36,428 bases of DNA from an uncultured Pelagibacteraceae bacterium (lineage in GTDB: Bacteria; Pseudomonadota; Alphaproteobacteria; Pelagibacterales; Pelagibacteraceae), in assembly GCA_902603215.1 (NCBI GenBank), contig CACKTW010000004.1:1-36428 (forward strand). Reading direction: 5' to 3'. The position numbers and the translations under genes were made by a program. A model generated the notes under the pieces. It had not been told where the DNA came from and did not search any database. It saw nothing but the letters and a program-made list of their open reading frames with translations. Numbering within the stretch: position 1 is the stretch's first letter; every line of letters starts with the position of its first letter. This document shows, in pieces, positions 14,270-35,622 of the stretch.

Positions 14270-14836
14270 CTCTTCTTGAAATAAGTTGCCTGAACAAGCT
14301 ATGTTATGATTTTTAATTGGAGATATAATCTGAATTTTTAAATAAATATTACTGAATAATATATTTTTTTCATTTTCGCTCAATCTTAAAAGAGATAAAA
14401 AATCGTTAACAAAAGTTTCCTTCATAATTTTTGTATTTAAAATTTTATTTTTTTTTTGAAAAAATCCATAGCCATATTTGTTAAAAAAAATTTTATTTCT
14501 AACTACATTGCAGTCACTATTTTTTGGCCTATACTGTTTTTTTAAATATCTATCTTTATCCATTAAAGCTTTGATATAAATTTGAATTTGATTTTTGTTA
14601 TTAACTTCTATCTTGTGACCTATGGCAGAATACAAAATATGAAGCTGAACTCCTGCTCTACGTGTTAACACCTGTTCTTTTATAACAAGTTTGTTGTCTA
14701 TCTGCGAAAGAATAAATTCTAAATAAGAAACATTTTTATTTTCAAAAGTTTTTTTTAAATCTGAAGCAAATATTGTGTTTGTAAATAAAAAAATAAAAAA
14801 AATTATAAATAAAATTAACCTTTTACATATTTCCAT
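14261..14836 (-). CDS. Hypothetical secreted/periplasmic protein coupled to ETF-QO
   Basis: Start revised from track (14974) to ATG at 14836: MEICKRLILFIIFFIFLFTNTIFASDLKK is a signal peptide; overlaps ETF-QO stop by 14 nt. Confidence 0.75.
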   Translation of the reverse strand: MEICKRLILFIIFFIFLFTNTIFASDLKKTFENKNVSYLEFILSQIDNKLVIKEQVLTRRAGVQLHILYSAIGHKIEVNNKNQIQIYIKALMDKDRYLKKQYRPKNSDCNVVRNKIFFNKYGYGFFQKKNKILNTKIMKETFVNDFLSLLRLSENEKNILFSNIYLKIQIISPIKNHNIACSGNLFQEELR

Positions 14837-16442
14837 ACTTGGGTCCCCCACCACCTTCTGGAGTAACCCAATTAATATTCTGTGAAGGTTCTTTAATATC
14901 ACATGTTTTACAATGAATACAGTTTTGAGAATTAATAACAAATTTTGCTTTATTATTTTCTCTTTGAATTTCATAAACTCCTACTGGGCAGTATCTTTGA
15001 GCAGGTTCATCAAACTTATCCAAAGTGTAATCAATTGGAAGATTTGGATTTGTTAGTTTTAAATGAACAGGCTGATTTTCAGCATGGTTAGTTCCTGTTA
15101 AATAAACAGAACTTGTCTTATCAAAAGTAATGATATTATCATATTTTGGATAATCAATTTTTGGCATTTTATTTGCTGATTTTAAAGTTTCATGGTCCGC
15201 ATGTTTATGTTTTAAAGTAAAAGGTAATTTTCCTCTAAATAAAATTTGATCAATCCCAGTAAATATGATTCCAGGAATTAACCCCCAGCCAAAACTTGGT
15301 TTAATGTTTCTAGCTGCGTATAGTTCTTTGTAGGCCCAACTTCTCTTAAATTTTTCTTCATAAATTGATAAATCTTTATTTTCTTTAATATGTTCGTTAA
15401 TTGTTTCGGCTGCAATTATTCCACTTTTCATAGCTGTATGAGATCCTTTAATTTTCGGCATATTCAAAGTGCCCGCATTACAACCAACTAGTAATGCACC
15501 TGGCATAAACATTTTTGGTAAACTTTGGATTCCACCTTCTATCAGTGCACGAGCACCGTAAGAAATTCTTTTACCTCCTTCTATAATTTTTTTGATTGCA
15601 GGATGAGTTTTAAATCTTTGAAATTCATCAAATGGTGATAAATGAGGGTTTTTATAATCTAATCCTATTACATAGCCTAAAAAAATTTGCTTGTTCTCAG
15701 CATGATACACAAAGCTTCCACCGTAAGTATTGTTATCTAATGGCCATCCGGCTGTATGCATTACAAGACCTTCTTGATGATTTTTTTCACTAATTTCCCA
15801 TATTTCTTTAAATCCAATACCATATTGTTGAGGATTTTTTCCCTCATCTAAATTAAATTTTTTAATTAATTGTTTTCCAAGATGTCCTCTGCATCCTTCG
15901 GCAAAAACTGTTACTTTCGCATAAAGCTCCATACCAGGTTGATAGCTATCTTTTTTGTTGCCATCTTTATCTACTCCCATATCCTGTGTTGCAATTCCTT
16001 TTACTGAACCATCTTGGTTATAAATAATTTCGCTTGCTGGAAATCCTGGAAAAATTTCAACACCAAGTTTTTCTGCTTGCTCAGCTAACCATCTACATAG
16101 ATTTGCTAAACTTATAATATAATTTTTGTGGTTTTTTTGAACTGATGGTAACAACCAAGTTGGCCAACTTAAAGATTTATGTCTTCCTAAAAATAAAAAT
16201 TTTTCTTTTGTAACCTTCGTTTTAACGGGCGAGTTTAATTCTTTCCAATTCGGTATTAACTCGTCTAAAGCCTTAGTTTCAAAAACATTTCCTGATAGGA
16301 TATGTGCTCCAATCTCTGATCCTTTTTCAAGCAAACAAATATTTAAATTTGAGTCTAATTGTTTAAGTTTAATTGCGGTAGCCAATCCTGATGGACCGCC
16401 GCCAACAATTACAGCATCATATTCCATAACTTCTTTGGACAT
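14823..16442 (-). CDS. Electron transfer flavoprotein-ubiquinone oxidoreductase (ETF-QO)
   Basis: DAVIVGGGPSGLATAIKLKQ; 4Fe-4S C-terminus CPVGVYE...FVINSQNCIHCKTCDIKEPSQNINWVTPEGGGGPKYGNM. Confidence 0.97.
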   Translation of the reverse strand: MSKEVMEYDAVIVGGGPSGLATAIKLKQLDSNLNICLLEKGSEIGAHILSGNVFETKALDELIPNWKELNSPVKTKVTKEKFLFLGRHKSLSWPTWLLPSVQKNHKNYIISLANLCRWLAEQAEKLGVEIFPGFPASEIIYNQDGSVKGIATQDMGVDKDGNKKDSYQPGMELYAKVTVFAEGCRGHLGKQLIKKFNLDEGKNPQQYGIGFKEIWEISEKNHQEGLVMHTAGWPLDNNTYGGSFVYHAENKQIFLGYVIGLDYKNPHLSPFDEFQRFKTHPAIKKIIEGGKRISYGARALIEGGIQSLPKMFMPGALLVGCNAGTLNMPKIKGSHTAMKSGIIAAETINEHIKENKDLSIYEEKFKRSWAYKELYAARNIKPSFGWGLIPGIIFTGIDQILFRGKLPFTLKHKHADHETLKSANKMPKIDYPKYDNIITFDKTSSVYLTGTNHAENQPVHLKLTNPNLPIDYTLDKFDEPAQRYCPVGVYEIQRENNKAKFVINSQNCIHCKTCDIKEPSQNINWVTPEGGGGPKYGNM

Positions 16443-16465
16443 ATGTTATTTTTTTACAGTATTTG

Positions 16466-17419
16466 TTATTTTTGTATAGTATTTAATTTGTTTAATTCTT
16501 CCAAAAATTGTGGAAGTGCATCAAATAAATCAGCTTCAAGACCATAATCTGCTACACTAAATATTGGTGCTTCACCATCTTTGTTGATTGCAACTATTAC
16601 TTTACTTTCTTTCATTCCTGCTAGATGTTGGATTGCTCCTGAAATTCCAACCGCAATATATAAATCTGGAACAACCACTTTTCCGGTTTGACCGACTTGA
16701 TGATCATTAGTTATATAGCCAGCGTCTACAGCGGCTCTTGATGCTCCAACTGCAGCATTTAGTTTGTCAGCTATCGCTGTGATCAATTTAAAGTTTTCAG
16801 CTTTTTGCATTCCTCTCCCACCAGAAATAACAACTCTAGCTGTGCCAAGTTCTGGTCTATCTGATTTAACTTCTTCCTTTTTGATAAATTTTAGTAATGG
16901 AGAAGATTCACCAGGTTCTTCTTTGACTATCTCTGCTGATCCACCTGATGAAGGTGCTGGATCAAAGGAAGTAGGTCTTATTGTAATGCATTTTTTTTGA
17001 TCCATACTTTTAACAGTTGCAAAAGCATTTCCTGCGTAAATTGGTCTTAAAAAAGTGTCTGGAGAAATCACTTTTATTATGTCGCTTACTTGTGATGTGT
17101 TTAACAAGGCAGAAACTCTGGGCATCAAATTTTTTCCAAATGTATTTGCTGAACAAACAATGTGAGAATAATTAGCTGACTGTTTGACTATTAAAGGTGT
17201 AAAATTTTCAGCTAAATAGTTTTCATAAATTTCATTATCTATATGAATAACTTTTTTTATATTTGAAACCTTTGATAAAGATTTTGCTACTTCGTCTGCT
17301 TTATTCCCTATAACTAAAACATGTAGATCTTGATCCATTTGAGATGCTGCGGTTACCGCATTTAAAGTAAATGGTTTTACTTCTTTGTTGTTGTGTTCTG
17401 CGATCAATAATACAGACAT
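16466..17419 (-). CDS. etfA: Electron transfer flavoprotein alpha subunit
   Basis: VVISGGRGMQKAENFKLI...GASRAAVDAGYITNDHQVGQTGKVVVPDLYIAVGISGAIQHLAGMK. Confidence 0.97.
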   Translation of the reverse strand: MSVLLIAEHNNKEVKPFTLNAVTAASQMDQDLHVLVIGNKADEVAKSLSKVSNIKKVIHIDNEIYENYLAENFTPLIVKQSANYSHIVCSANTFGKNLMPRVSALLNTSQVSDIIKVISPDTFLRPIYAGNAFATVKSMDQKKCITIRPTSFDPAPSSGGSAEIVKEEPGESSPLLKFIKKEEVKSDRPELGTARVVISGGRGMQKAENFKLITAIADKLNAAVGASRAAVDAGYITNDHQVGQTGKVVVPDLYIAVGISGAIQHLAGMKESKVIVAINKDGEAPIFSVADYGLEADLFDALPQFLEELNKLNTIQK

Positions 17420-18168
17420 TAAATTACCTTTGCCTCATTTTTTAATTTTTGGACTAATTCTGCAACGTTTGCTACTTTAATTCCTGATTTTCTTTTAGGT
17501 GGCTCTTCAACTTTAATCTGTTCTATTCTTGGTTTTGTATCTACTCCTAAGTCAGCAACATTAATTTGCTCTAAAGGTTTTTTCTTTGCTTTCATTATAT
17601 TTGGCAAAGAAGCATATCTTGGTTCGTTTAGTCTTAAATCGCATGTAATAACTGAAGGAATATTAACTTCAATTGTTTCTAACCCTTCGTCAATTTCTCT
17701 TGTAACCTCCAATGATTTATCTTTAACAACAATCTTTGATGCAAAAGTAGCTTGTGGCCAGTTTAATAACGCGGCTAACATTTGGCCGGTTTGATTACAG
17801 TCATCATCTATTGCTTGCTTACCCATAAAAACTAAATCTGGTTTTTCTTTTTCAACAATTTTTTGAAGAATTTTTGATACTGCCAAAGGTTCTAAAATAC
17901 CTTCTGATTTAACATGAATTCCCCTGTCAACTCCAACTGCTAAGGCTTTTCTAACTGTTTCTTGAGCCTTTTCTTCACCAACAGTGACTGCAATAACTTC
18001 TTTAACTTTACCAGATTCTTTAATTTTTACCGCTTCTTCAACAGCGTTATCGTCAGGAGGATTCGTGGACATTTTAATATTTTCAGTAACTACACCTGAG
18101 TTATCTTCTTTAACTCTTACTTGAACGTTATAATCAATAACTCTTTTTACTGCGACTAATATTTTCAT
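17419..18168 (-). CDS. etfB: Electron transfer flavoprotein beta subunit
   Basis: [20 protein letters not shown]...[16 protein letters not shown]...[30 protein letters not shown]. Confidence 0.97.
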
Positions 18169-20600
18169 TATGCTCTTAATAGTTTATTTTCAGGATCGTA
18201 TGGACTCTCGTCCAAAATTGTAGCGTCGTGCATTTTTCCTAAAATATCAATTTTTAATTTTTGACCAGTTGTCGCAAGTTCAGGTTTGACCATACCTATA
18301 GCAATTGATTTATTTAATCTAAAGCCAAAATCACCTCCTGTTGCTCTTCCAACAACTTTTCCATTTTGATAAACAGGGTTATTTCCTAAAACATCTGCGT
18401 CGGATACATTGTGAACTTCCATAGTTACTAACTTGTTCTGAAAGCCTTTTTCTCTCCACTTGTTTAATGCATCTAAGCCAATAAATTTTCCTTTGTTAGG
18501 ATGTATAAATCTGTCTAAACCAGATTCGTAAGGCGAGTATTCAATGGACAACTCTGTGCCAACGAGTTTATAAGACTTTTCAACTCTTAAACTATTCATT
18601 GCTCTAATTCCAAAAGGTTTTAAACCAAGATCTTTTCCGTTTTCCATTAATTTATCAAATATGTGATTTTGATATTCTAATGGATGGTGAATTTCCCATC
18701 CCAATTCGCCAACAAAATTTACTCTTATAGCTGTACATGGGGCATATCCAATATCTACTTTCTTGGAACTTAGCCACTTAAAATTTTCATTAGAAAAATC
18801 ATCTTTTGAAACTTTTTTCATTAAATCTCTCGATTTAGGTCCTGCAACTACCAAAACGCCTATTGAATTTGTTAAATTTTCAAATTGAACTGACCCATCT
18901 TTTGGCATCCATTTTTGAATCCAGTCATGATCTAACCTTTGAAAAGCGCCAGCTGAAACTAAATAAAAACTATCTTCTGCTTCTTTCATTATTGTAAACT
19001 CAGAATGAACTCCTCCTTTTGTATTAAGAGCGTGACATAAATTTACTCTACCAATTTTTTTTGGAATTTTGTTTGCCACTAAATAGTCTAAAAATTCTTC
19101 TGCCTTTGGTCCTTTAATTCTACATTTTGCAAAAGCAGACATGTCTAAAAGACCCACATTTTCTTTTACATTTTTACATTCTTTTTCAACTGCTTTGAAC
19201 CATTTTGATCTTCTAAATGACCAATCATCTTTTTGTTCCATTCCATCTGTTGCAAAAAAATTTGCTCTTTCCCATCCAAACTTTTGTCCAAATACCGCTC
19301 CTAATTTTTTTAATCGATCATAACAAGGTGCTTGTCTTAATGGTCTTGCGGCTCCTCTTTCTTCATCAGGATAATGAATTATAAAAACGTTTCTATAAGC
19401 TTCTTCATTTTTTTCTTTTAAGTAAGATTTAGAACAATAATCTCCATATCTTCTTGGTTCTACTCCAAGCATATCTACTGTTGGCTCTCCATCTACAATC
19501 CATTCTGCTAGTTGCCAACCAGCTCCACCAGCAGCTGTAATACCAAAACTATGTCCTTCATTAATCCAAAAATTTTTTAATCCCCAAGCTGGTCCAACAA
19601 TTGGATTTCCATCTGGAGTATAACAAATTGCACCATTGTAAACTTTTTTAACTCCAACTTCTCCAAAAGCAGGAACACGGTGTATGGCTCCTTCAATATG
19701 AGGCGCAAGTCTATCTAAGTCTTCTTGAAATAATTCATATTCAGAATCTTTTGATGGACCATCAACATAACAACATGGTGCTCCATCTTCATAAGGTCCT
19801 AAAATTAATCCTCCAGCTTCTTCTCTCATATACCAACGACTATCACTATCTCTTAACACTCCCATTTCAGGAAGACCTTCTTTTTTTCTTTTTTGAATTT
19901 CAGGATGTGGTTCAGTAACTATATATTGATGTTCAACCGGTATTACTGGTATATCAAGACCAACCATTTTGCCCGTTTGTCTAGCAAAATTTCCTGAACA
20001 AGAAACAACATGCTCACATTCTATTGTTCCTTTATCAGTTTCTACTACCCAACCATCTTTGCTTTGTTTAATTCCTACTACTGCTGTATTTCTGTAAATT
20101 TCTGCTCCTTTGTTTCTTGCGCCCGTTGCAAGCGCTTGCGTTAAATCAGCTGGTTGGATATATCCATCTTCTGGGTGTTGAATTGCACCAATTAAATCTG
20201 AAGTATTACATAAAGGCCAAATTTCTTTTACTTGATCTGGAGTTAAAAATTTATATTTAACTCCAATAGTTTGAGCGACACCTGCATACTGATGATACTC
20301 GTCCATTCTATCTTTTGTGGTTGCTAATCTAATGTTTGATACAACGCTAAAGCCTACATTTTTTCCTGTTTCTTCTTCTAAAGTTTTATAAAAATCAACC
20401 GCATACTTATGAAGTTGTCCCACAGAGTAGCTCATATTGAATAATGGAAGTAATCCAGCTGCGTGCCATGTTGAGCCTGAAGTTAATTCTTTTCTTTCAA
20501 CCAAAACTACATCTGACCAACCTTTTTTCGCCAAATGATAAAGCATGCTAACTCCTACTGCTCCACCGCCAATTACGACCACTTTTGCTTTGCTTTTCAT
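18168..20600 (-). CDS. Dimethylglycine dehydrogenase-like protein (FAD oxidoreductase fused to GcvT-type THF domain)
   Basis: [49 protein letters not shown]-terminal GcvT region; adjacent to ETF/ETF-QO genes. Confidence 0.88.
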
Positions 20601-20658: not shown

Positions 20659-21426
20659 ATGGACAGTTTGTGGGTACCCTGCTATATCCCGGAAAAAATG
20701 AACTTTTCTTTAGAAATTGGATTGAAATCAAACTTGGATGATTTGCCTAATATAAAAGATATTTATATTACCTTGTTACCCAATGAAGATTATAAAGATG
20801 TTGCTGCTAAAGCAACCCAGCTTGTTTCAAAAGGGTTTAATGCGGTCCCTCACTTTCCTGCGCGGTCTATTAAAAATTTAGAAAATTTAAAGGACTACTT
20901 AAATAGATGTAAAGATGGAGGTGTAAAACAAGCTCTGGTAATTGGCGGAGGAACGCAACCTATTGGAGATTTTCATTGCTCATTTCAATTACTTGAGACG
21001 GGACTTTTTGAAGGTCTGAAGATAGGAATTGCTGGACATCCAGAGGGATCTCCTGATATATCCGATTCTGATTTAGAAAAAGCTATGATTGATAAGAAAC
21101 CTTTCGCTGATTATATAGTGACTCAGTGGTTGATAAATCCAGATCCAATCAAAGAATACATACCTAAACAATCATTACCAGTACATGTGGGAATTACTGG
21201 GCCCATGAAAATTAGTAGTTTGCTAAAGTTTGCTACAATTGTTGGTGCAAAAAATTCCATTAATTTTATTAAATCAAATCCTATAAAAGCTTTTGATTTA
21301 CTGAAACCAAAAGAACCAAATGATTTAATTAATAAATTGAAAGATGTAGCAAGCAATTTTCATATTTATACATTTGGTAATTTGAAAACAACTAACAAAT
21401 GGTTAAAGGAGAATAACTATGCCTAA
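20659..21426 (+). CDS. Methylenetetrahydrofolate reductase family protein (short, divergent)
   Basis: FSLEIG (catalytic-Glu region), PHFPARSI, ALVIGGG, GIAGHPEGSP, and PVHVGITGP motifs match MetF fold; internal ATG at 20698 is an alternative start. Confidence 0.85.
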   Translation: MDSLWVPCYIPEKMNFSLEIGLKSNLDDLPNIKDIYITLLPNEDYKDVAAKATQLVSKGFNAVPHFPARSIKNLENLKDYLNRCKDGGVKQALVIGGGTQPIGDFHCSFQLLETGLFEGLKIGIAGHPEGSPDISDSDLEKAMIDKKPFADYIVTQWLINPDPIKEYIPKQSLPVHVGITGPMKISSLLKFATIVGAKNSINFIKSNPIKAFDLLKPKEPNDLINKLKDVASNFHIYTFGNLKTTNKWLKENNYA

Positions 21427-22846
21427 AAAAAAGAAAAAAGCCAAAAAAAATAAAACTAAAAAAATTAAATCAGTTTCATTCAAAAATGAAAAAGTAAATT
21501 ACGATAAGGTAAAACATACGCTGTCAGTAGATCAATCAGATAGACATGTTCCTTACAATCTAAGACAGAGTGGTCCAACAAAAGTTGAAATGTTAATTTC
21601 AACAAGAGTACGAAAATCTCCTTATTGGCATCTTTCAATGAAAGCAGGATGTTGGAGAGCCACTATTTACAATCGAGTATATCATCCAAGGGGTTATGTA
21701 AAACCTGAAAAAGGTGGGGCTATGGTTGAATATGCAGCAATTAAAAATCATGTAACAATGTGGAACGTGGCTGTTGAAAGACAAATTCGCGTCAAAGGAC
21801 CAGATGCAGAAAAATTTACAGACTATGTGATTACAAGAGATGCAACAAAAATTTCAACAATGAGAGGTCGTTACGTTATTCTTTGCAATAATAAAGGTGG
21901 CGTATTAAATGACCCAGTTTTATTAAGAGTAGCTGATGATGAATTTTGGTTTAGCTTGTCAGATTCTGATATCGGTTTTTATTTACAAGGTGTTAATGCT
22001 GACAAAAGATTCAATGTTGAAATAGATGAAATTGATACATGTCCGGTACAAATTCAAGGACCAAAATCAAAAGCATTAATGAATGATTTAATTGGAGATC
22101 AAGTTGATTTAGATAATATGCCTTTTTATGGTTTAGCAGAAGCTAAGGTAGGAGGCAGAAGCTGTGTGATTTCTCAATCAGGATTTTCTGGTGAAGCCGG
22201 ATATGAAATTTACCTTCGTAATGCAACTTTATATGCAGAAGATATGTGGAATGCTGTGCTTAAAGCTGGAAAAAAACATAAATTGATGGTTATTGCTCCA
22301 GCTCACCACAGAAGAATTCAAGCCGGAATATTATCTTGGGGTCAGGATATGGATCAAGAGCATAATCCTTTTCAGTGCAATTTAGGCTATCAAGTTTCTT
22401 TATCTGGAAAAGGTCAATGGAATAAAACAACTGATTATGTCGGCAAAGAAGCTTTAGAGAAAATGAAGGATCAAATTAGCAATGGTAGCAAACCTTACAA
22501 ACTTCAACTTGTAGGCTTAGAATTAGGTGGAAAACCTATCGAGGAATATGCTCCGGACTTCTGGTTAATATCAAATGCCAAAGGGGGTAAGCCAGTTGGC
22601 TACATTACTTCACCTTGGTATCACCCAGAAAAGAAAAAAAATATTGCTATGGGTTACGTTCCTTATGAAGGACATAAAAACGCTAAAGGATTTCCGATTG
22701 GAAATTTTGGTAAAAAATATAAAGTTCATTTACCAAAAAAATATTCCAAAAATCCAGTTAAAGCAGTGGTTGTTCCGATTCCATTTACACAGTCTTTCAA
22801 TGCGAATACTCGAGAGTCAGAAGTTCTAGCTGTTTTAAATAAATAG
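21419..22846 (+). CDS. GcvT/DmdA-like THF-dependent methyltransferase with Lys-rich N-terminal extension
   Basis: ISTRVRKSPYWHLSMKAGCWRATIYNRVYHPRG, WNVAVERQIRVKGPDA, LNDPVLLRVADDEFWFSLSDSDIGFY resemble DmdA; overlaps MTHFR by 8 nt. Confidence 0.85.
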   Translation: MPKKKKKAKKNKTKKIKSVSFKNEKVNYDKVKHTLSVDQSDRHVPYNLRQSGPTKVEMLISTRVRKSPYWHLSMKAGCWRATIYNRVYHPRGYVKPEKGGAMVEYAAIKNHVTMWNVAVERQIRVKGPDAEKFTDYVITRDATKISTMRGRYVILCNNKGGVLNDPVLLRVADDEFWFSLSDSDIGFYLQGVNADKRFNVEIDEIDTCPVQIQGPKSKALMNDLIGDQVDLDNMPFYGLAEAKVGGRSCVISQSGFSGEAGYEIYLRNATLYAEDMWNAVLKAGKKHKLMVIAPAHHRRIQAGILSWGQDMDQEHNPFQCNLGYQVSLSGKGQWNKTTDYVGKEALEKMKDQISNGSKPYKLQLVGLELGGKPIEEYAPDFWLISNAKGGKPVGYITSPWYHPEKKKNIAMGYVPYEGHKNAKGFPIGNFGKKYKVHLPKKYSKNPVKAVVVPIPFTQSFNANTRESEVLAVLNK

Positions 22847-22860
22847 TTAAAAAAATTAAT

Positions 22861-22890
22861 AAAACAGGGGATTAGTCTTCCCCCTGTTTT
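22861..22890. terminator. Likely (possibly bidirectional) intrinsic terminator
   Basis: Perfect 10-bp stem AAAACAGGGG (22861-22870) / CCCCTGTTTT (22881-22890), loop ATTAGTCTTC; 15 nt downstream of the GcvT-like stop. Confidence 0.8.
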
Positions 22891-22912
22891 ATGGTACCAT
22901 TCTTCCCTGTTT

Positions 22913-23485
22913 ATGAATTATATAAAACCAATGTTTAATCAATTGATTGATTATATCTATAGATCTATTAAGCTTGATAGATCTCTTTATGGAAATCCTG
23001 AAAATTTCCATGATTTATCAATTTTTTATGCCGCTATAATAATAATTTTAAATGCTGTTGCTGGGGTGATAGCTGCAACTGTAATAGCTGCAAATACCAA
23101 TTACAGTCCGGCAACAGATATTGTGTCAGTAACTGTACAAACAATTCTGGATTGGGCAGTTTTGTCTATTCTTCTATATATAATTGGAACAAAAATATTT
23201 CATGAATCTGATACTAAAGCAGACTTAAAAAAAGTTTTTACTGTTGTGGGATTTGCTCATTCGCCAGGTTTACTAAAAATTATCGTTGTTGTAATACCCG
23301 GTTTAAATTTTAAGCTAATAATGACATTTGTATTTTTTACTTTTTTTTGGTTTATTGCTTCACTAACGATTGGAATTAAGGAAGCCTTAAATTTTAAAAG
23401 TGACATGAAATCTTTTGGCGTAATACTAATAGCCTTTTTGATAATTGGGTTTATAATTTCTTTTATTTTATTATTTTATTTGTAG
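22913..23485 (+). CDS. YIP1-family membrane protein
   Basis: Multiple TM helices, AHSPGLLKIIVVVIPGLNF and FWFIASLTIGIKEALNF typical of Yip1-domain proteins. Confidence 0.75.
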   Translation: MNYIKPMFNQLIDYIYRSIKLDRSLYGNPENFHDLSIFYAAIIIILNAVAGVIAATVIAANTNYSPATDIVSVTVQTILDWAVLSILLYIIGTKIFHESDTKADLKKVFTVVGFAHSPGLLKIIVVVIPGLNFKLIMTFVFFTFFWFIASLTIGIKEALNFKSDMKSFGVILIAFLIIGFIISFILLFYL

Positions 23486-23488
23486 AGT

Positions 23489-24100
23489 CTAATCATTATC
23501 TGTTAATCCAGCTCCTGCGGCTGTCTTCTTTAGGTCGTCAGACTCATCCACGAAAGTCTCTTCTGAAAGTTTATACAATTCTTTCCAGTCTTGCTCCGAA
23601 AAAGAATTTTTATTTTCTATAAATTCTATATTTACTACTTTTGCTTTGGATTGAGTTTGTTTTTCAATATTTTTTGAAAAAATAGATTTATCAAAATTTA
23701 ACAAGAAGTTTGAATTGTCAAATTGAACTAATATTTTTTTACTCATTATCTCAGATGCTCTGCTAATAAAAGGAAGCATAAGCAAAGGGTAGTTTACGTT
23801 ATAAAATTTAAGAGATTTTAATTTTTCTAGCTCCAAACAACGATCTAAAAAGGCTACGCCCGAATAAATGGGACATAATTCTTTATCATCAGTTTTATTT
23901 TCCTTTTCTATTTTTGTTATTTTTGCTGGATGTTTTTTCTTAATTTTTTTTAAATATTGATTGAGATTTATAATCCCCGGCAAACCAAATAATTCTAAAC
24001 TTCTTATTGATTTTCCTATTTCTTCTGCAACTCCCCATGAAAAACCTGCAGCTTTCGAAGCTCTTTTTGTAGTCGTTTCAATTTCGCTAAAAGTTATCAT
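23489..24100 (-). CDS. DUF3726-like hypothetical protein
   Basis: TKRASKAAGFSWGVAEEIGKSIRSLELFGLPGI N-terminus; last gene of sox-linked operon. Confidence 0.65.
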   Translation of the reverse strand: MITFSEIETTTKRASKAAGFSWGVAEEIGKSIRSLELFGLPGIINLNQYLKKIKKKHPAKITKIEKENKTDDKELCPIYSGVAFLDRCLELEKLKSLKFYNVNYPLLMLPFISRASEIMSKKILVQFDNSNFLLNFDKSIFSKNIEKQTQSKAKVVNIEFIENKNSFSEQDWKELYKLSEETFVDESDDLKKTAAGAGLTDND

Positions 24101-24102
24101 AA

Positions 24103-25773
24103 TTAATTAAGTGAGTTATATATCCATGTATCATCTGAATTTTTTAATTCATGAGATAATGGAGCTCCTTGATACATATTTATTCTAAGCCATTTATCTG
24201 ATCTTGGATCAAACTTAACTGCTCCAAAAAATGAAAGTTTTAAGCGAAGCATATCTATGGGCATTAATGAAGCTCCAATTGTATTATCTTGAATTTCTGA
24301 ATAAGGGAATTGATCAGTTATAAAAGCTCTTCTAACAACATGTCTCAAATCATCATTATTTAATAAAAAATCTGCAACTGTTTTTGATTGATTTGTTTTT
24401 AATATTCTTTCGTAAAGTTGTTTTATATCTCTTGCGATTGCCAAGGGTTGTTCTAATTCAGCGCCTTGTTCTTCATATCTGTTAGCAACTCTAGGCTCTT
24501 CTTTGTTTTTTGATATAAACCAGAAATTGGTAATACTATTTTTTTCCTTAAAATTAATTTTGATAATTGATTGATATTTCTTTTCTAAGATTATTTTAAG
24601 TTCTGAAATTTTCCTATGACCTGGAATGCTAAAGTAACGCTCTTCCTCTGAGCTCATATTATTAATTAAAGGATCTATAATTTTATCATAAGGTTCCATC
24701 ATCATAGAAACTATATATTCAACGCATTCTTCATTAAGATTTTTTTCTACCCAAAGATAGATTGTATTCCACAAATATTTTATCTTAATTGAACAATCTT
24801 TTTCTATAAATTTATCAAATTTAATTAAATCAGATTTTAGAGAATTAATTTTTTTATTTTGATATTCGCTATCTGTTAGCCATGTACCAATAATTGCTTT
24901 AGATTTAGTAAGACAATTTTTGAAAAAAATAAATTCATCATTATTCACAACCTTGATAGATCTAATCTCCTTTAACGCCTTTTCTCTACTATAAATCCAT
25001 TTATGTAAAAGTGTTGGATGATTAACAATAAAAGGTGCCATTCCTAACCCTGTTGAATTTCCTATTCCTAAACTTCTTGCAATGTTTTCATCAAGTTGAA
25101 CTGCTTTGTCAGGATTTTTATTTTTGGCTATATGATTAACTTGATCAAAAGTAAACTGACGAACCAGATACACCAGCATCATTTCTAGCCTGAATGGCCC
25201 ATAAACTTCTTTTCTATTTTTAATTCTAAAACGATCAGCTAATCCAAATTTCCCTGATCCATAAACAGCTGTAGTTCTATACAAATAACCTACTTTGTTT
25301 AATAAATTTCTATCTGGTTGTTTGCCTTCACTTAATGAGTTAACAACATGATCAAAAACTCTTACTGACTTATTGGCCCTTGATAATGTAAGTTCTTTGT
25401 AAGACATTCTGCCAATTTCTTGTTTGGGAACGTTTTCTTTAAGTCGGTTTATATCTTCTTGAGTTGGAGCTCCATCATGCAAAACAAAAGCAGTATCCCA
25501 TTTTGTAGCTATTACTCTATCTGATCGTTCGTTTGGATTTATATATTGAGAAAAACATATCAAAGAATAATTTCTTTTATTTTTCTCAAATGAATATACC
25601 GCTACTCCATAACCGCCTTTGTCTAGTTTAAATATGTTTCTTTTGTATTCCCAATCCTTAAATTCTCTAATAAAGCTTCTCAAAAATGAAAGTTTAGATT
25701 GATGAAACGATCCTAGTCTAGAAAGTTTCATTACTTCATTTGGATCTCTAAGTTTTATATTTATTTTGCTCAA
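24103..25773 (-). CDS. Conserved hypothetical protein, 556 aa, no recognised domain
   Basis: Long ORF, TTG start overlapping previous gene by 4 nt (TTGA); no motif I recognise. Confidence 0.8.
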   Translation of the reverse strand: MSKINIKLRDPNEVMKLSRLGSFHQSKLSFLRSFIREFKDWEYKRNIFKLDKGGYGVAVYSFEKNKRNYSLICFSQYINPNERSDRVIATKWDTAFVLHDGAPTQEDINRLKENVPKQEIGRMSYKELTLSRANKSVRVFDHVVNSLSEGKQPDRNLLNKVGYLYRTTAVYGSGKFGLADRFRIKNRKEVYGPFRLEMMLVYLVRQFTFDQVNHIAKNKNPDKAVQLDENIARSLGIGNSTGLGMAPFIVNHPTLLHKWIYSREKALKEIRSIKVVNNDEFIFFKNCLTKSKAIIGTWLTDSEYQNKKINSLKSDLIKFDKFIEKDCSIKIKYLWNTIYLWVEKNLNEECVEYIVSMMMEPYDKIIDPLINNMSSEEERYFSIPGHRKISELKIILEKKYQSIIKINFKEKNSITNFWFISKNKEEPRVANRYEEQGAELEQPLAIARDIKQLYERILKTNQSKTVADFLLNNDDLRHVVRRAFITDQFPYSEIQDNTIGASLMPIDMLRLKLSFFGAVKFDPRSDKWLRINMYQGAPLSHELKNSDDTWIYNSLN

Positions 25774-26753
25774 GCGCTTATCCCTTGGTAAAAATTATAC
25801 CAATTATTTCCTAGTATGTCATTTACCTCAGTATCTTTGAATCCAACTTTTTTTAGTCCTAATTCTAAGTTCTTAAATCCTCTTGCATCTTTAAACCAAT
25901 CTGGCTGTTTGGGAAAACTGGCATCTGAAGGGCTTCCTTCTCCGTAATCCTTTCCTTTGGTCCATTTGCCATTTCTCATCCAGTCGACTACAGAATCTGG
26001 ATGTCCAATACAAAGATCTGATCCTATTCCAATATGTTTAACACCTATAAGATCAGCAGTTTTTGCGGCCATTTCACAAAAACTTTCTAGGCTACAATTT
26101 GATTTATCTTTTAAATGATGAGGATATAAAGAAAGACCTATCATTCCTCCCGAGTCTGCTAATGCTTTTAAAACTTCATTTGATTTATTTCTTTTTGCGG
26201 AAAACCAAAATGATGGGTTGGCATGCGTAATTGCTATCGGTTTGGAAGATGCTTCAATTGCATCTAATGTAGATTTTTCTGCTGAGTGAGACATATCTAC
26301 CACAACACCTAATCTATTCATTTCTTTGATAACTTCTTTTCCCATTCTTGTAACTCCACTATCATTTTTTTCATAACAGCCCGTGGCCAATAAAGATTGA
26401 TTATTATAAGTTAACTGCATAAAAATTATTCCTAATTTATAAATTTCCTCAACTAGCCCAATATTATCTCCAATGGGTGAGCAGTTTTGAAAACCAAAAA
26501 AAACTGCTGTCTTTTTTTCTTTATGCGCTTTTTCTATATCTTTAAATGTTTTTCCGTGGAAAATTAAATCTTTAAAATTTTTAAAATGCTTGTTCCAAAT
26601 GCTTATATTTTTTTCTACTTCACTAAAATCTTCATGATAAGCAATTGTAACATGTATTGCATCTAATTTTGCTTCTCGATTAATTTTAAAAATCTCTTTA
26701 GACCAGTTGCAATATTGTAAATTATCTATTCTATAATTTTTTTTTTCACTCAT
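25770..26753 (-). CDS. M19 (membrane dipeptidase) family protein with degenerate metal site
   Basis: VVVDMSHSAEKSTLDAIEASSKPIAITHANP...HIGIGSDLCIG; canonical DGHND replaced by DNLQYCNW. Confidence 0.88.
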   Translation of the reverse strand: MSEKKNYRIDNLQYCNWSKEIFKINREAKLDAIHVTIAYHEDFSEVEKNISIWNKHFKNFKDLIFHGKTFKDIEKAHKEKKTAVFFGFQNCSPIGDNIGLVEEIYKLGIIFMQLTYNNQSLLATGCYEKNDSGVTRMGKEVIKEMNRLGVVVDMSHSAEKSTLDAIEASSKPIAITHANPSFWFSAKRNKSNEVLKALADSGGMIGLSLYPHHLKDKSNCSLESFCEMAAKTADLIGVKHIGIGSDLCIGHPDSVVDWMRNGKWTKGKDYGEGSPSDASFPKQPDWFKDARGFKNLELGLKKVGFKDTEVNDILGNNWYNFYQGISA

Positions 26754-27337
26754 AAATTTTTATAACCATATTCTAAGCAAGAATCTGTAATACTATCATA
26801 AAGAGACTCTCCAAAGCTTCTAAGAGCAAATAATCTTATTTTATTTGGATTATCATTAATCATATCAATAGTAATTGATATGCCATGAAATACTGAATTT
26901 AAACAACTATCTTTTTTTAATTCATCAAAATTAAATGGACATCCCTTTTTTAATATTTCTTTAGAATTTTCTCCCTCTAGTTCAATAATAGCTCTTGAAT
27001 GAGATAGGTCTGTAATTGCAAAATCAGTTTCCTTTAATGATTCAAAAATATTTTTTAATAAATCTTTTTTTCTTGAAATCAGCAGCCAATTTTTTGGACC
27101 AACCCATAAAATTCTAGTATCATTATTACAGGCTACTTTTAATGATTCATTATTGAAAACTAGCCCATCTACTTTAATATTGTGTACTGAAATAAGTGAA
27201 TTCTTATATTGAGCTATTTGTAAAATTAAAAAATCTTTTTCTTCTGAAATTTTAATCAATTTATCTTCATTTTTATTCTCATAATCTCCAAAAAGACCTT
27301 TTTTATGGACTTTTTCTAAGGCTGAACTATTTGTCAT
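26750..27337 (-). CDS. soxG: Sarcosine oxidase gamma subunit
   Basis: Position after soxA with ATGA overlap; WVGPKNWLLIS, AITDLSHSRAIIELEGENSKEILKKGCPFNF. Confidence 0.9.
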   Translation of the reverse strand: MTNSSALEKVHKKGLFGDYENKNEDKLIKISEEKDFLILQIAQYKNSLISVHNIKVDGLVFNNESLKVACNNDTRILWVGPKNWLLISRKKDLLKNIFESLKETDFAITDLSHSRAIIELEGENSKEILKKGCPFNFDELKKDSCLNSVFHGISITIDMINDNPNKIRLFALRSFGESLYDSITDSCLEYGYKNL

Positions 27338-30330
27338 GATCTAACCCTTTCTCCTTTAGGATCAACATAATGAGATGAAACCACTTCTACAGGAATAACT
27401 TTATTTTTTAATGGTGAAACCGCAAATAATTTTTGACCAATCATATTTTTTCCATCCTTTAAAATAGCTAGTGAAAAAGGATTATTGAATTCAACACTCC
27501 AGCAAGAAGATGAGATATGACCTAGTTTAGGATTGGGTAATTTTGCATTAACATCTTTAACCAGATGAGATCCTTCTGGAATGCTTGTTTTCTTATCTAT
27601 TGGAACTAATCCGACTATTTTTTGTCTATCTTTCGCTATAAATGCTGGTTTATTTAAAGATCTTTTCCCAATAAAATCTTTCTTTTTACTTAACATTCCT
27701 TCAAGTGATACATCATATGAAATGGTTCTTCCATCTAGCTCTGGTCCAGCAACATGTCCCATTTCAATTCTTAATGTAGACAATGCTTCTGTGCCATAAG
27801 GCTGTATCTCAAACTCTTTTCCTAATTGAATAATTTTTTCCCACATAAAGTTTCCATTATTTGATTCAACGTTAATTTCGTAAGCAAGTTCTCCAGAAAA
27901 AGAAATCCTAAATATTCTTGCATGAACTCCTGATAAATTACCTTCTAAGTAACCCATAAAAGGAAAGTTATCATTTGACACATCTAAATCTGTAAAAATT
28001 TTTTTTAACAAATCTCTAGACCTTGGTCCCGCTAAAGCAGCTCCTGCCCACTGCTCAGTCGTTGAAACAACATTAACATTTAGTTCTGGCCAAACAACTT
28101 GTAGATAATACTCAAGGTGAGATAAAATATTTGCTGCTTGTGCTGTTGTTGTGGTCATATGATAATGATTTTCTGAAATCCTAGTTGTAGTTCCATCATC
28201 CATTAGCATTCCATCTTCTCTAAGCATTACTCCATATCTTGCTTTTCCAATTGGAAGTTTTAACCATGCATTCGTATAAACTCTATTCAAAAATTCAGCT
28301 GAGTCTGGTCCTTTAATATCTATTTTACCCAATGTAGTAACATCACAAATTCCAACATTTTTTCTAACATTCGCTGCTTCTCTTTTTGATGCTTGAAATA
28401 ATGTTTCGTTACCTTTTTTATAATATCTTGGTCTTAACCAAACTCCCGCATCTACAAAAACTGCATTATTTTCTTTATGCCATGTGTGCATTGGTGATTT
28501 TCTAGTTGGTTTAGAATGTTTTCCAATTTCTCTTCCAACAATTGTTCCAATTGTTACTGGCGTATATGGAGGTCTGAAAGTTGTATGGCCTACATCAGGT
28601 ACAATTTTGTCTTCAATGCTTGAAACAAGTTGTAAACCATTAAGATTACTTGTTTTACCTTGGTCTGTTGCCATTCCTAATGTTGTATATCTTTTAACAT
28701 GTTCAATTGATCTATAACCTTCTCTTAATGCAAGCTCTATATCTGAAACGGTAACATCATTTTGAAAATCAATAAATCTTTTATATTTTTTTCCTTTTGG
28801 TAGAGGAACGCACCAAAATTTATCATGTTTTGTAAATTTCTTTTCTACAACTGATGGGGTTAAAATTTTTTTATCATTGTTTGTTATTTTTTTTGACAAT
28901 TGATAACCTGTTTCGAAAGACGTCTTTAATGTTTCTTCCAAAGTAAATGTTCCTTTTGCTGACCCCACTGTTGTTTCTTTTTGTTTTGGCTGATTTGGAA
29001 CAAATGAATCTATATTTTTATCAAATTTTGTTCTATTCCCAGACTGTGATGATAAATGTATTGTTGGAGTCCAAAATCCAGACACGCATATACAATCACA
29101 ATCAACATTTTCAATTTTTCCTAAAGTGTTTTTGTCTTTTGAAATCTTTGAAACTTCAGCTGATTTGACTTTCTTATAACCTTTTGCGGAAACAACAACG
29201 TGTGAAAATTTAATCTCGATATTTAAATTTTTTGCCTCATTAATAATTTCAGAACTTGGTTTTTCTCTTGAATCAAAAATTAAAGGATTGATTCCATTTT
29301 TTTTAAATTCAATTGCAGTTTCATAAGCGCTATCATTGTTTGTGAATATTAATGGTTTTTTACCAACCAAAACTCCATAAACTTTTAAATATTCTTTTGC
29401 TGCGGAAGCTAATACTACTCCTGGAGTATCATTATTTCCAAAAACTATTGGTCTTTCTATAGATCCAGAAGAAATGACAACTTCTTTAGCTCTAATATAC
29501 CAAAGTCTTTGCCTTGGAGTATATTTTTTAGGTTTTGCCAAATGGTCAGTTAAACGTTCTGACATTACTAACATATTGTGATCATAATAACCAAACACCT
29601 GCGCTCTGTTTTTTACCGTAACATTCTGCATTCCTTTAAGTTCATTTATAATTTTATTAGCCCAATCTTTTCCACTTTGGTTTCCAATGTTAACTTCATC
29701 AGTTAGTAAACTTCCACCAAACCTTGGTTTGTCTTCAGCAAGAATTACTTTTGCTCCATTTTTTGCTGCAGCATATGCGCTTGCTAGACCTGCGGGCCCA
29801 GATCCTGCAACTATTAAGTCACAATATTCATATTTATGCTCATATCTATCTTTGTCATGCTTGACTGATACAACGCCAAAACCAGCTGCTTTTCTAATAA
29901 ATGGTTCGTAAATTTTATACCAAAAACTTTTTGGCCACATGAAAGTTTTGTAATAAAAACCAGCTGGTAAAAATTTATTCAAAAAATTGTTTATAGCACC
30001 AACATCAAAATTTACACTTGGCCAACAGTTCACGCTTTCAGATTCTAGTCCTTCAAAAATTTCTATCTCAGTTGCACTTACATTTGGTTCACTTTCTCCA
30101 TTTTTATAAAGTTGAACCTTTGCGTATGGTTCGTCGACTCCTGAGCCAAAAAAACCTCTTGGTCTATGATATTTAAAACTTCTTCCAATAAGATGAACTC
30201 CATTAGCAATTAGTGCTGAAGCAAGCGTATCACCTTCGTATCCATAATATCTTTTTCCATTGAATTTAAATGAAACTTTTTTATCTCTATTAATTAAACC
30301 AATATTATCTAATCTATAATCTTGTGACAT
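27334..30330 (-). CDS. soxA: Sarcosine oxidase alpha subunit
   Basis: FNGKRYYGYEGDTLASALIANGVHLIGRSFKYHRPRGFFGSGVDEPYA; LIVAGSGPAGLASAYAAAKNGAKVILAED; C-terminal GcvT domain. Confidence 0.97.
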   Translation of the reverse strand: MSQDYRLDNIGLINRDKKVSFKFNGKRYYGYEGDTLASALIANGVHLIGRSFKYHRPRGFFGSGVDEPYAKVQLYKNGESEPNVSATEIEIFEGLESESVNCWPSVNFDVGAINNFLNKFLPAGFYYKTFMWPKSFWYKIYEPFIRKAAGFGVVSVKHDKDRYEHKYEYCDLIVAGSGPAGLASAYAAAKNGAKVILAEDKPRFGGSLLTDEVNIGNQSGKDWANKIINELKGMQNVTVKNRAQVFGYYDHNMLVMSERLTDHLAKPKKYTPRQRLWYIRAKEVVISSGSIERPIVFGNNDTPGVVLASAAKEYLKVYGVLVGKKPLIFTNNDSAYETAIEFKKNGINPLIFDSREKPSSEIINEAKNLNIEIKFSHVVVSAKGYKKVKSAEVSKISKDKNTLGKIENVDCDCICVSGFWTPTIHLSSQSGNRTKFDKNIDSFVPNQPKQKETTVGSAKGTFTLEETLKTSFETGYQLSKKITNNDKKILTPSVVEKKFTKHDKFWCVPLPKGKKYKRFIDFQNDVTVSDIELALREGYRSIEHVKRYTTLGMATDQGKTSNLNGLQLVSSIEDKIVPDVGHTTFRPPYTPVTIGTIVGREIGKHSKPTRKSPMHTWHKENNAVFVDAGVWLRPRYYKKGNETLFQASKREAANVRKNVGICDVTTLGKIDIKGPDSAEFLNRVYTNAWLKLPIGKARYGVMLREDGMLMDDGTTTRISENHYHMTTTTAQAANILSHLEYYLQVVWPELNVNVVSTTEQWAGAALAGPRSRDLLKKIFTDLDVSNDNFPFMGYLEGNLSGVHARIFRISFSGELAYEINVESNNGNFMWEKIIQLGKEFEIQPYGTEALSTLRIEMGHVAGPELDGRTISYDVSLEGMLSKKKDFIGKRSLNKPAFIAKDRQKIVGLVPIDKKTSIPEGSHLVKDVNAKLPNPKLGHISSSCWSVEFNNPFSLAILKDGKNMIGQKLFAVSPLKNKVIPVEVVSSHYVDPKGERVRS

Positions 30331-30332
30331 GC

Positions 30333-30599
30333 TTAAATCTCTTCTGTAACTTTAAATGTTTTAAATATTTCATGTGTTGATGTATCTCTTTGAATTTTAA
30401 ACCACTGTCTACATCCTGAGACATGATGCCAAAACTCTAAATGTTTTCCTCTTGGGCTTTTTCTCAAATAAACAAAATTATCCCAATCTTTATCTGAAAC
30501 TTCTTTATTTATTTCTGGCCTTTTAACTGTTGCATCTCCACCATAAGCAAATTCATTTTGAGACCTATCTCCACAATATGGACATTTAATAAATAACAT
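30333..30599 (-). CDS. soxD: Sarcosine oxidase delta subunit
   Basis: MLFIKCPYCGDRSQNEFAYGGDA...YLRKSPRGKHLEFWHHVSGCRQWFKIQRDT; zinc-binding Cys residues. Confidence 0.97.
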   Translation of the reverse strand: MLFIKCPYCGDRSQNEFAYGGDATVKRPEINKEVSDKDWDNFVYLRKSPRGKHLEFWHHVSGCRQWFKIQRDTSTHEIFKTFKVTEEI

Positions 30600-30602
30600 C
30601 TT

Positions 30603-31859
30603 CTATCCTATCCAAGTTTTAGTTCCTAAACCTTTTTCATCTAATAAATAACCCGTGCTAAAACGATTTAAACTTAAATTAGCATTTAATTCATGAACTG
30701 CATCTTTTGCAATCGTGTAAGCAAAAGTCCAACCAGATGCGGGAGTTGATTTAAAACCACCATAACACCATCCACAATTTAAATACAATCCTTCAATGTG
30801 TGTTTTGTCAATTATTGGAGAACCATCCATAGACATATCCATTATACCACCCCAAGTTCTTAACATTTTTAATTTGCTTAGAAATGGAAATAAAGCAAGA
30901 CCTTCCGTTAAAACATGTTGTAAAGTTGGTAGGTTTCCTCTCTGAGCATAACTATTATAACCATCCAAATCTCCTCCCATTACCATTTCGCCTTTGTCTG
31001 ATTGACTGGAATAAAAATGACCTGCTCCAAAAGTAACAACATAATTTAAAATAGGTTTTATTGGTTCAGAAACACAAGCTTGTAGCAGATGTGTTTCGAT
31101 AGGAAGCGTCATATTTAATTTTTCTGCAAGAATAGAAGTACTTCCAGCAACACATAAACCAACTTTTTTTGTTTTAATATTTCCTTTTGAAGTTCTAATA
31201 CCTTTTATTTTTCCATTAACAATATCAAATCCATTAACTTCACAATGTTGTATGATATCTACACCCATGGAATCGGCTTGACGTGCGTAACCCCAAACAA
31301 CAGCGTCATGTCTAGCTGTTCCAGCGCTTGGTTGCATTAGTCCGCCAAAAATTGGAAACCTCACATTTTCTGAAAAATCTGCCATTGGAATTAATTTTTT
31401 TACTTCTTCTCTATCCAATAAAACTGCATCAATTCCATTAAGTCTCATGGAATTCCCTCTTCTTGAAAATGCATTCATTTGAACATCAGAATGAGCAAGA
31501 TTAATTATTCCTCTTGGAGAAAACATTACATTAAAATTCAATTCTTGACTCATGTTTCTCCATAAATTCATTGCAAATTCATTAAATCTAGCATTGGCAT
31601 CATACATATAATTAGATCTAATAATTGTCGTATTTCTTCCAACGTTTCCACCTCCTATCCAACCTTTCTCTATGATGGCAATATTTTTTATTTTATGTTC
31701 TTTAGCTAAATAGTAGGCTGTAGCAAGTCCGTGCCCCCCTCCACCTATAATTACAACATCATATTCTTTTTTAGGTTTGGGATTTTTCCAGGCAACTTCC
31801 CAGTCTTTATGATTTCTAAAGGCATTTTTGATTAAGCTAAATAATGAATATTTCTGCAT
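30603..31859 (-). CDS. soxB: Sarcosine oxidase beta subunit
   Basis: YDVVIIGGGGHGLATAYYLAKEHKIKNIAIIEKGWIGGGNVGRNTTIIRSNY. Confidence 0.97.
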   Translation of the reverse strand: MQKYSLFSLIKNAFRNHKDWEVAWKNPKPKKEYDVVIIGGGGHGLATAYYLAKEHKIKNIAIIEKGWIGGGNVGRNTTIIRSNYMYDANARFNEFAMNLWRNMSQELNFNVMFSPRGIINLAHSDVQMNAFSRRGNSMRLNGIDAVLLDREEVKKLIPMADFSENVRFPIFGGLMQPSAGTARHDAVVWGYARQADSMGVDIIQHCEVNGFDIVNGKIKGIRTSKGNIKTKKVGLCVAGSTSILAEKLNMTLPIETHLLQACVSEPIKPILNYVVTFGAGHFYSSQSDKGEMVMGGDLDGYNSYAQRGNLPTLQHVLTEGLALFPFLSKLKMLRTWGGIMDMSMDGSPIIDKTHIEGLYLNCGWCYGGFKSTPASGWTFAYTIAKDAVHELNANLSLNRFSTGYLLDEKGLGTKTWIG

Positions 31860-31956
31860 AAAAATAAATCTATACCACGAATTTAATTTTTTCTAATTGT
31901 AAAAGATCTTCTAAATAATGTATACATATTCAGTTTTTTTAGATATAGGTGACGCA

Positions 31957-33642
31957 ATGAGCACTATGAAATCTGATATTGAGATCGCAAGAGCTGCGAA
32001 AATGCTCCCTATTAAAGATATCTTGAAAAAAATTAATGTGCCAGATGAGCCTGGATCGTTTAGTCCTATGGGTCGTCATATTGCAAAAATAGATTTAGAT
32101 TATATTAATAAATTAAAAGAAAAAACAAGTAATTTAATTTTGGTTACAGCTATAACTCCAACGCCTGCTGGGGAAGGAAAAACTACAACATCTGTTGGAT
32201 TGAGTGATGGTCTTAACAAAATTGGAAAAAAATCAATAGTATGTTTAAGAGAGCCTAGTTTAGGTCCATCTTTTGGAATGAAAGGTGGTGCGGCAGGAGG
32301 CGGTTATGCTCAAGTTGTGCCAATGGAACAAATCAATTTACATTTTACAGGTGATTTCCATGCAATTACATCTGCACATAATCTTTTAGCTGCATTGATT
32401 GATAACCATATTTATTGGGGCAATAAACTTAACATAGATGTAAGAAGAATTTTTTGGAGACGAGTTGTTGATTTAAATGATCGTGCACTAAGATCTATTA
32501 ATATTAATCTTGGTGGTATCGCAAACGGATTTCCAAGAGAAGATGGTTTTGATATTACTGTTGCTTCAGAAATCATGGCTATTTTTTGTTTATCAAATAA
32601 TTTGAAAGACTTAGAGGAAAAAATTGGAAATATTACAGTAGCTTACACAAGAGAAAAAAAACCAATCTTTGCTAAAGATTTAAATGCTCAAGGTCCAATG
32701 ACTGTTTTGCTTAAAGAAGCTATTCGTCCAAATATCACTCAAACGCTTGAAAATAATCCTGCAATTATTCATGGAGGTCCATTTGGTAATATCGCTCATG
32801 GTTGCAATTCACTAATCGCAACAAAAACGGGCTTAAAATTATCTGATTATGTTGTAACTGAAGCAGGTTTTGGAGCTGATCTTGGTGCTGAAAAATTTAT
32901 TAATATAAAGTGTCGTAAGGGAGAAATTCAACCTAGTTGCGTTGTTCTTGTTGCAACTATTCGAGCATTAAAAATGCACGGTGGATTAAAAAAAGATGAA
33001 TTAAAATCAGAAGATGTTAATGCGTTAAAAAAAGGTTTACCAAATCTTGAGAGGCATATTAATAATATTAAAAAATTTGGCTTGGATGTTGTTGTTGCAA
33101 TTAATCATTTTGTAACTGATACGGATAAAGAAATTAAAATTATTGATGATTTTTGTAAAAAAAATAAAGTAAAAGTTAGTCTTTGCAAACATTGGGAAAA
33201 AGGTGGTGAGGGAACTAAAGAATTAGCAAATATTGTTGTTGAACTTTGTAAAAAGTCAAAAAAAGAAAATTTTAAATTTCTATATAAAAAAGACCTTTCG
33301 TTATGGAAAAAAATTGAAACTATAGCAAAAGAAATTTATGGAGCTAGCGAGGTTGTTGCTGATACAAAAAATAGAGAATTGTTAAAAAAAATGGAAGATA
33401 GCGGTTTTGGTGACTTCCCAGTTTGTATAGCAAAAACACAATATAGTTTTTCTACTGATCCAAATTTAAAAGGTGCTCCATCTGGTCATGTTTTACAAAT
33501 TAGAGAAATAAGATTGTCTAGCGGTGCTAAATTTATTGTTGTTATATGTGGATCAATAATGACCATGCCAGGACTTCCTAGAGTTCCTGCTGCAGATTCA
33601 ATTAAACTGAACAATAAAGGTGAAATAGAAGGTCTGTTCTAG
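31957..33642 (+). CDS. fhs: Formate-tetrahydrofolate ligase
   Basis: [67 protein letters not shown]. Start revised from 31918 to ATG 31957, preceded by AGGTGA. Confidence 0.97.
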
Positions 33643-34439
33643 CTATTCTTTTTTAGATAATTTAACCAATTTTTCAATTCCACTGTGCGAGTAGTATCGT
33701 TTATTTTTAAATCTTCTCTTGTAATTAAATCAATATGACTATCAATTTCAGAATTGTTTTCAAAAGTTTTTACATCTAACAATCTTTGTCTTCGATGTTT
33801 AATTAACTTAATCATGTAAGAATAAGGAATTTCAGGATGATATTGTAATCCCCATATTTCGGATTTTCCTGCAGCAATATGCATGGCTCCAAATTTATTA
33901 ATTTTATTACTTGCTAATAAAACAGAATTTTTTGGTGGAACTTCTACTTCATCAAAATTAAAGGCAGGTGCAGTAAATTTATTTGGTTTAGAAATATAAA
34001 GATGATGTTTTTTTCCTTCATCAGTTAATTCAATGTTTTGGGCTATCCCAACATGTGCTCCGTTCGGTGCTATTCTACATTTTCCACCCATTGCAGTTAC
34101 AGCAACCTGCAAACCCCAACAAGCTGCAAAAAATTTTTTTCCATATTCAAAACATTTTTTTGCAAACTCTACATGTTTTTTAACTTCTTTATCATTTTCA
34201 TCATTTATACGTAGCGTACTTCCTGTTAAAACAATCCCGTTATATTTTTCTAATGATGAAATAATCTTTGACATAGAAGCATCATCGCAAGGTTCTGTAA
34301 TGTCTATTTTAGAATTAGGTTCGTACATTTCGATATGTTTTTTAAAGTTTTCTGATTGTGATGTACAGCCAGCTTTCTTAAAGCCAGAATTTGCTTCTTT
34401 GGTATTGCCCTCAACTATTAATAAGTTTAAACGATCCAT
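33639..34439 (-). CDS. Class I glutamine amidotransferase-like protein
   Basis: [17 protein letters not shown] nucleophile elbow and [11 protein letters not shown] (HxE). Confidence 0.9.
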
Positions 34440-34448
34440 ATTGAAAAA

Positions 34449-35612: not shown

Positions 35613-35622
35613 AAATAATTTT

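Follow-up and report, generated by a model that had tools for sequence, protein, structure and literature searches.

The window analysed here, a 36,428-nucleotide stretch of DNA from an uncultured Pelagibacteraceae bacterium, carries genes for a sarcosine oxidase that run directly into three genes for an M19-like protein, a 556-aa protein and a DUF3726 protein. This arrangement raises the question of whether the seven genes act together, and what the last three, referred to below as the trio, might do. The original prediction read the run as translationally coupled throughout, and the trio as an auxiliary complex of N-methyl amino acid catabolism.

The seven-gene run

All seven genes lie head to tail on the minus strand in the order soxB-soxD-soxA-soxG-M19-like-556-aa-DUF3726. 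The intergenic gaps from soxB to DUF3726 are 3, 2, -4, -4, -4 and +2 nt, as had been described. The genes, together with the divergent neighbour of soxB, are as follows:

30603-31859, minus strand: soxB, beta subunit; TIGR01373, 652 bits against a cut-off of 529
30333-30599, minus strand: soxD, delta subunit, 88 aa; from its translation and 70-84% identity to the soxD in the same place in other SAR11 loci
27334-30330, minus strand: soxA, alpha subunit, heterotetrameric sarcosine oxidase family; TIGR01372, 1316 bits against a cut-off of 1164, and tree position
26750-27337, minus strand: soxG-like, gamma subunit; PF04268 (7e-4) and TIGR01375 (7e-19, 68 bits), both below the curated cut-off, and position after soxA
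25770-26753, minus strand: M19-like protein (membrane-dipeptidase family), 2i5g subgroup; PF01244, 2.6e-72, canonical metal ligands absent
24103-25773, minus strand: 556-aa protein whose family is undescribed, starting at TTG; unmatched in Pfam, NCBIfam and the PDB
23489-24100, minus strand: DUF3726 protein, 203 aa; PF12525, 7e-20, 71.1 bits against a Pfam cut-off of 22.1
31918-33642, plus strand: formate-tetrahydrofolate ligase (FTHFS), divergent from soxB; PF01268, 1.4e-264

The B-D-A-G order, with soxA and soxB both above their curated cut-offs, places soxBDAG in the heterotetrameric sarcosine oxidase family. Spacing is weak evidence by itself: of the 16 other same-strand gaps in the window, 8 likewise measure 5 nt or less. 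Comparison across genomes adds what spacing cannot, since it shows the M19-like, 556-aa and DUF3726 genes to be a conserved unit. The window is contig C4 of a 0.8 Mb metagenome-assembled genome (MAG) that is about 70% complete, so that genes missing from this MAG are weak evidence. Its named relatives are Pelagibacteraceae (SAR11).

FTHFS could plausibly take up released C1 units, and is also divergent from soxB in loci L215, L069 and L181. It is the first of three genes flanking soxB (31918-35666: FTHFS, class I GATase, Fe-ADH), which have the same order in L215. On the other side, genes for a GcvT/DmdA-like protein (475 aa), an MTHFR-like protein of 255 aa and a Yip1 protein (20659-23485) are convergent to the trio and keep this position in most SAR11 loci; the 475-aa protein scored 243 bits against a DMSP demethylase cut-off of 410. 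A further run at 14823-20600 encodes a DMGDH-like protein (810 aa), two putative ETF subunits and ETF-QO, so that the window holds several N-methyl oxidation genes.

The conserved trio and its partners

The M19-like and 556-aa genes are adjacent in all 88 SAR11 loci, and DUF3726 is next in 87 of them. The 556-aa family is carried by 47 of 100 relatives, by 39 of 290 genomes drawn from across the class and by 26 of 349 drawn from across the phylum. Among the 290 alphaproteobacterial genomes, DUF3726 was found in 32, all of them among the 39 with the 556-aa family (Fisher p=4e-36), and in every one it lies directly downstream of the 556-aa homologue, with at most 119 nt between the matches. Beyond the alphaproteobacteria, the family is present on one Vibrio and one Caballeronia plasmid. 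A transporter sits between the M19-like and 556-aa genes in a few non-SAR11 loci, and in L158 the M19-like gene is on the opposite strand. The trio is a real, co-inherited and widely conserved unit that is not local to the window, and an old one. Co-occurrence of the three genes outside this locus, whose absence would have counted against the original prediction, is strong.

Outside SAR11 the trio lies in a longer conserved operon, LysR-aldehyde dehydrogenase (ALDH)-M19-(BCCT)-556-DUF3726-Ldh, accompanied by BCCT or betaine ABC transporters. The full operon is present in Rhodobacteraceae M382, Aminobacter NyZ550 and Phaeobacter and Tritonibacter plasmids, and much the same operon in many further genomes. 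Seven SAR11 loci have betaine-type proX/proW genes close to the trio, and nine have an ALDH gene within 3.5 kb. Most SAR11 loci lack ALDH and Ldh genes near the trio, and neither adjoins it in the window. Among solved Ldh_2 structures, the operon Ldh family scores highest against DpkA, at 296 bits, with the second best reaching 209. A single Ldh_2 gene was found in this MAG, on another contig, and it is likewise closest to DpkA among the solved structures (270 against 144 bits). The one ALDH match of the MAG, which again lies outside the window contig, shares 31% identity with the operon ALDH and has a malate-dehydrogenase-like gene as its neighbour. The operon Ldh has no match in genomes G060 and G061. 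DpkA is an imine reductase that uses keto acids and methylamine to form N-methyl amino acids (PMC6110843). It is by a wide margin the closest solved structure to the Ldh partner of the full operons; its described native role, however, is in D-lysine degradation, and the window trio has no adjoining DpkA-like gene.

The best solved relative of the window M19-like protein is 2i5g (4e-54), which we believe to be P. aeruginosa PA5396, the product of a dipeptidase-like gene beside dgcAB. The 103 alignable trio M19 proteins all lack the HxD motif and carry Gln in place of the bridging Glu and Tyr in place of one substrate His. Two His, one Arg and one Asp remain; the roles of all these residues are presumed by analogy with renal dipeptidase. 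The set expected of an M19 membrane dipeptidase (HxD, bridging Glu, two His) was thus found in none of these proteins. With key metal ligands gone from all 103, ordinary binuclear-zinc dipeptidase activity is unlikely, and so is a peptidase handling sarcosine-containing peptides, one of the roles originally suggested. In P. aeruginosa and V. natriegens, dgcAB is accompanied by a dipeptidase-like gene and a hypothetical gene (PMC12093977). Like ours, that locus combines genes of N-methyl amino acid catabolism with an M19-like protein that lacks the canonical metal ligands, but no 556-aa or DUF3726 partner has been described there.

The 556-aa family has 85 invariant residues over 25 diverse homologues. 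Forty-six were still invariant in an alignment of 29 members, after addition of those from Vibrio, Caballeronia, S. meliloti and Aminobacter, the last two being about 24-26% identical. No match was found in Pfam, NCBIfam or the PDB by sequence, or in the PDB by profile, and the protein has no recognisable cofactor motif; a match to a family of known, unrelated function, which would have counted against the original prediction, did not turn up. An AlphaFold2 model built from 50 SAR11 sequences (pLDDT 73.5, pTM 0.79) gave no credible match to PDB folds in Foldseek, a comparison that may have missed a fold as the most conserved motifs have pLDDT below 50. One SAR11 match (L131, 10001-11656) contains an in-frame stop codon and was left out of the fold alignment.

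The C-terminal tail of DUF3726, ...GAGAGLTDND, is kept in most of 22 homologues; a single-sequence structure prediction reached pLDDT 36, too low to be of use. Profile comparison gave 20% probability for a relationship to the N-terminal part of Ldh_2, which we do not claim. Nor do we claim kinship with the third protein of the S. meliloti/Aminobacter module described below, whose C-terminal motif looks alike by eye (2% probability).

A proposed betaine pathway, most likely for homarine

The role in N-methyl amino acid catabolism that had been proposed is borne out by the company the trio keeps, namely soxBDAG-type genes and genes of N-methyl and betaine catabolism. We favour, with moderate confidence, the reading that a betaine-degrading operon, most likely that of the homarine (N-methylpicolinate) pathway, has the trio as its core, and that in this genome the trio has ended up directly behind soxBDAG.

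To become N-methylglutamate, homarine must lose one of its ring carbons. A cut between C5 and C6 would leave an N-formyl-N-methyl dehydroamino acid with an aldehyde, after which one would expect an aldehyde dehydrogenase, an enzyme for the N-acyl group and an imine reductase. As the ALDH, M19-like and DpkA-like Ldh proteins of the full operon would cover these, the ring opening would be left to the 556-aa and DUF3726 proteins, and the pathway might run as follows. The 556-aa protein and DUF3726 would open the N-methylpyridinium ring between C5 and C6, giving an N-formyl-N-methyl group and an aldehyde. Judged from the gene set, aldehyde dehydrogenase would then oxidise the aldehyde to a gamma-carboxylate. 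The M19-like protein, whose altered metal site lacks the canonical ligands, might remove the N-acyl group of the dehydroamino acid. A DpkA-like reductase of the Ldh family, whose relation to DpkA is observed, would reduce the resulting N-methylimine to N-methylglutamate; in this genome the step would rely on the DpkA-like gene of the other contig. Finally SoxBDAG, or N-methylglutamate dehydrogenase (Mgd) where present, would demethylate N-methylglutamate, giving glutamate and a C1 unit for tetrahydrofolate, a step to which the observed linkage of sox to the trio points while the specificity is our suggestion. An N-formyl or N-methyl intermediate, one of the original guesses, fits this scheme.

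A model for the first step is the trigonelline pathway of Acinetobacter baylyi, in which TgnAB opens an N-methylpyridinium carboxylate to an N-formyl-N-methyl product. The likeness is one of reaction; TgnAB differs in being a two-component flavin monooxygenase.

A homarine operon, homABCDER, has reportedly been described in Rhodobacterales and SAR11, with N-methylglutamate as the product (Ferrer-Gonzalez et al. 2026, Nat Microbiol); it is said to comprise five catabolic genes and one regulator. The full trio operon is a candidate for this hom operon, to judge by its make-up. The number of catabolic genes, the regulator, the occurrence in SAR11 and the link to N-methylglutamate and Mgd agree with the full Rhodobacterales operon. 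Five catabolic genes and a regulator are found together in Rhodobacterales, Aminobacter and others; the window differs in clustering only three, with no adjoining LysR gene and with fusion to soxBDAG rather than linkage to mgd. Other observations sit less well with homarine: the ALDH and Ldh genes are away from the trio in most SAR11 loci, and G060 and G061 have no operon Ldh match. Mgd takes part in homarine catabolism (PMC13390433), which makes the N-methylglutamate step likely, and R. pomeroyi draws homarine down quickly (PMC12817926).

The best-surviving alternative, to which we give a minority share, is that the trio degrades another betaine or N-methylated cyclic amino acid, such as trigonelline, stachydrine or carnitine. 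The operon layout and the predicted substrates of its BCCT and betaine ABC transporters would be compatible with small betaines of any kind, and cyclic imines, piperideine-2-carboxylate for one, are further substrates of DpkA-like reductases. In the Phaeobacter loci the neighbours of the trio operon include genes for a Rieske-type oxygenase and a reductase, and a dimethylglycine-dehydrogenase-like gene. A distant version of the trio with different partners is present in S. meliloti and Aminobacter. The S. meliloti module encodes 556-like, 251-aa and M19 proteins together with an ABC transporter, an aminotransferase and ALDH, so that the layout seems to have been reused for another substrate, possibly in another betaine pathway. 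Against these points, the role of Mgd and the reported homABCDER operon favour homarine. The S. meliloti module (L143, 8731-19342; pSymB about 388.5-399.1 kb) also includes an IclR gene, and its aminotransferase is of class III.

Returning to the homarine reading, we suggest tentatively, and with clearly less confidence than in the pathway itself, that the 556-aa protein, together with DUF3726 and the metal-site-stripped M19-like protein, opens N-methylpyridinium rings as an enzyme of a new kind whose fold is undescribed, the distant S. meliloti/Aminobacter version opening a second betaine. Betaines such as homarine are plentiful among the metabolites of plankton, and no ocean heterotroph is more abundant than SAR11. 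Should the reading hold, the trio would mark SAR11 genomes able to turn such betaines into glutamate nitrogen, and would supply a testable substrate for a large family without fold or function that has 46 invariant residues and alpha-, beta- and gammaproteobacterial members.

Linkage to sarcosine oxidase

The direct soxG-M19 junction was found in no other locus with a visible upstream side, including L002-L030 and 80 longer SAR11 loci, and the fused seven-gene run was thus observed in this genome alone. What is conserved is the trio; its fusion to sox is local to this genome. Looser linkage is common. In 54 of the 80 longer SAR11 loci, soxG lies on the same strand 2.8-8.1 kb upstream of the trio, with other genes between (purE/purK-like genes among them in L084); the longer loci were used here, the sox count over all 88 being disturbed by GcvT-domain matches of other genes. 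The closest arrangement is that of L215, with FTHFS divergent and then soxB-soxD-soxA-soxG-proX-proW-M19-556-DUF3726, and the window looks like this order minus proXW. An assembly join is argued against by the FTHFS/GATase/Fe-ADH flank, which matches that of L215. L211 and L213 have the order soxBDAG-BHMT-DMGDH-proX-proW-ABC ATPase-trio, and soxBDAG is also near the trio in L158 and just upstream of it on Phaeobacter plasmids.

It is improbable, though less so than an accessory role for the trio, that genome streamlining brought the genes together by chance, a random deletion at soxG-M19 having joined two operons with unrelated jobs. The junction is confined to this MAG, tight spacing is common in the window, and there is no sox beside the trio in L209, the nearest relative (556-aa protein 93% identical), or in L210 (88% identical). 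A chance join does not, however, account for the recurrence of sox-trio linkage in Phaeobacter and L158, or for the SAR11 intermediate L215, in which only proXW separates the two and the FTHFS flank is the same. The trio is a genuine catabolic unit of wide conservation that stands here in a local fusion, and it probably represents the homarine pathway in a SAR11 form. Upstream of the trio in L209 (5435-12952) are amidinotransferase-like and M24-peptidase-like genes and a polyamine-type ABC transporter, in place of sox.

That the trio serves as an accessory or assembly complex of the heterotetrameric sarcosine oxidase, whose cofactor assembly was one of the roles originally suggested, is very unlikely. 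In its favour are the direct junction with soxG in the window, the many SAR11 loci and the Phaeobacter plasmids that have soxBDAG upstream, and enrichment of the trio in genomes with soxA above the cut-off (31 of 39 genomes, odds ratio 10, p=5e-10). Against it, the 556-aa family is missing from 68 of 99 such soxA genomes, many trio loci (L209, L139, L140 and L178 among them) have no sox nearby, and the non-SAR11 operon instead carries ALDH, a DpkA-like reductase and a betaine transporter.

In a quick tree of 36 soxA sequences, with SH-aLRT support and no bootstrap, the trio-linked copies (SAR11, L158, L183 and Phaeobacter) all fall in one clade (SH-aLRT 98), L158 on a long branch. The second soxA copies of G003, G260, G164, G377, G253 and G350 lie outside it, and an Mgd-type copy, recognised by neighbouring genes for a type III glutamate-ammonia ligase and a glutamine amidotransferase, is far outside. 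We also considered whether the window sox genes might be Mgd (mgdABCD) in disguise, and rejected this, as the window protein is 36% identical to the Acinetobacter Mgd-type subunit and falls outside the Mgd branch. Likely Mgd orthologues, 51-52% identical to that subunit, were found in only 3 of 34 trio-bearing genomes, so that demethylation in most of these genomes must use Sox or something else. Other members of the trio-linked soxA clade are neighbours of GlxA-type regulators and GbcB-like genes, and the clade may simply be the sarcosine oxidase of the glycine-betaine pathway; sarcosine, N-methylglutamate or both are the candidate substrates of the trio-linked Sox.
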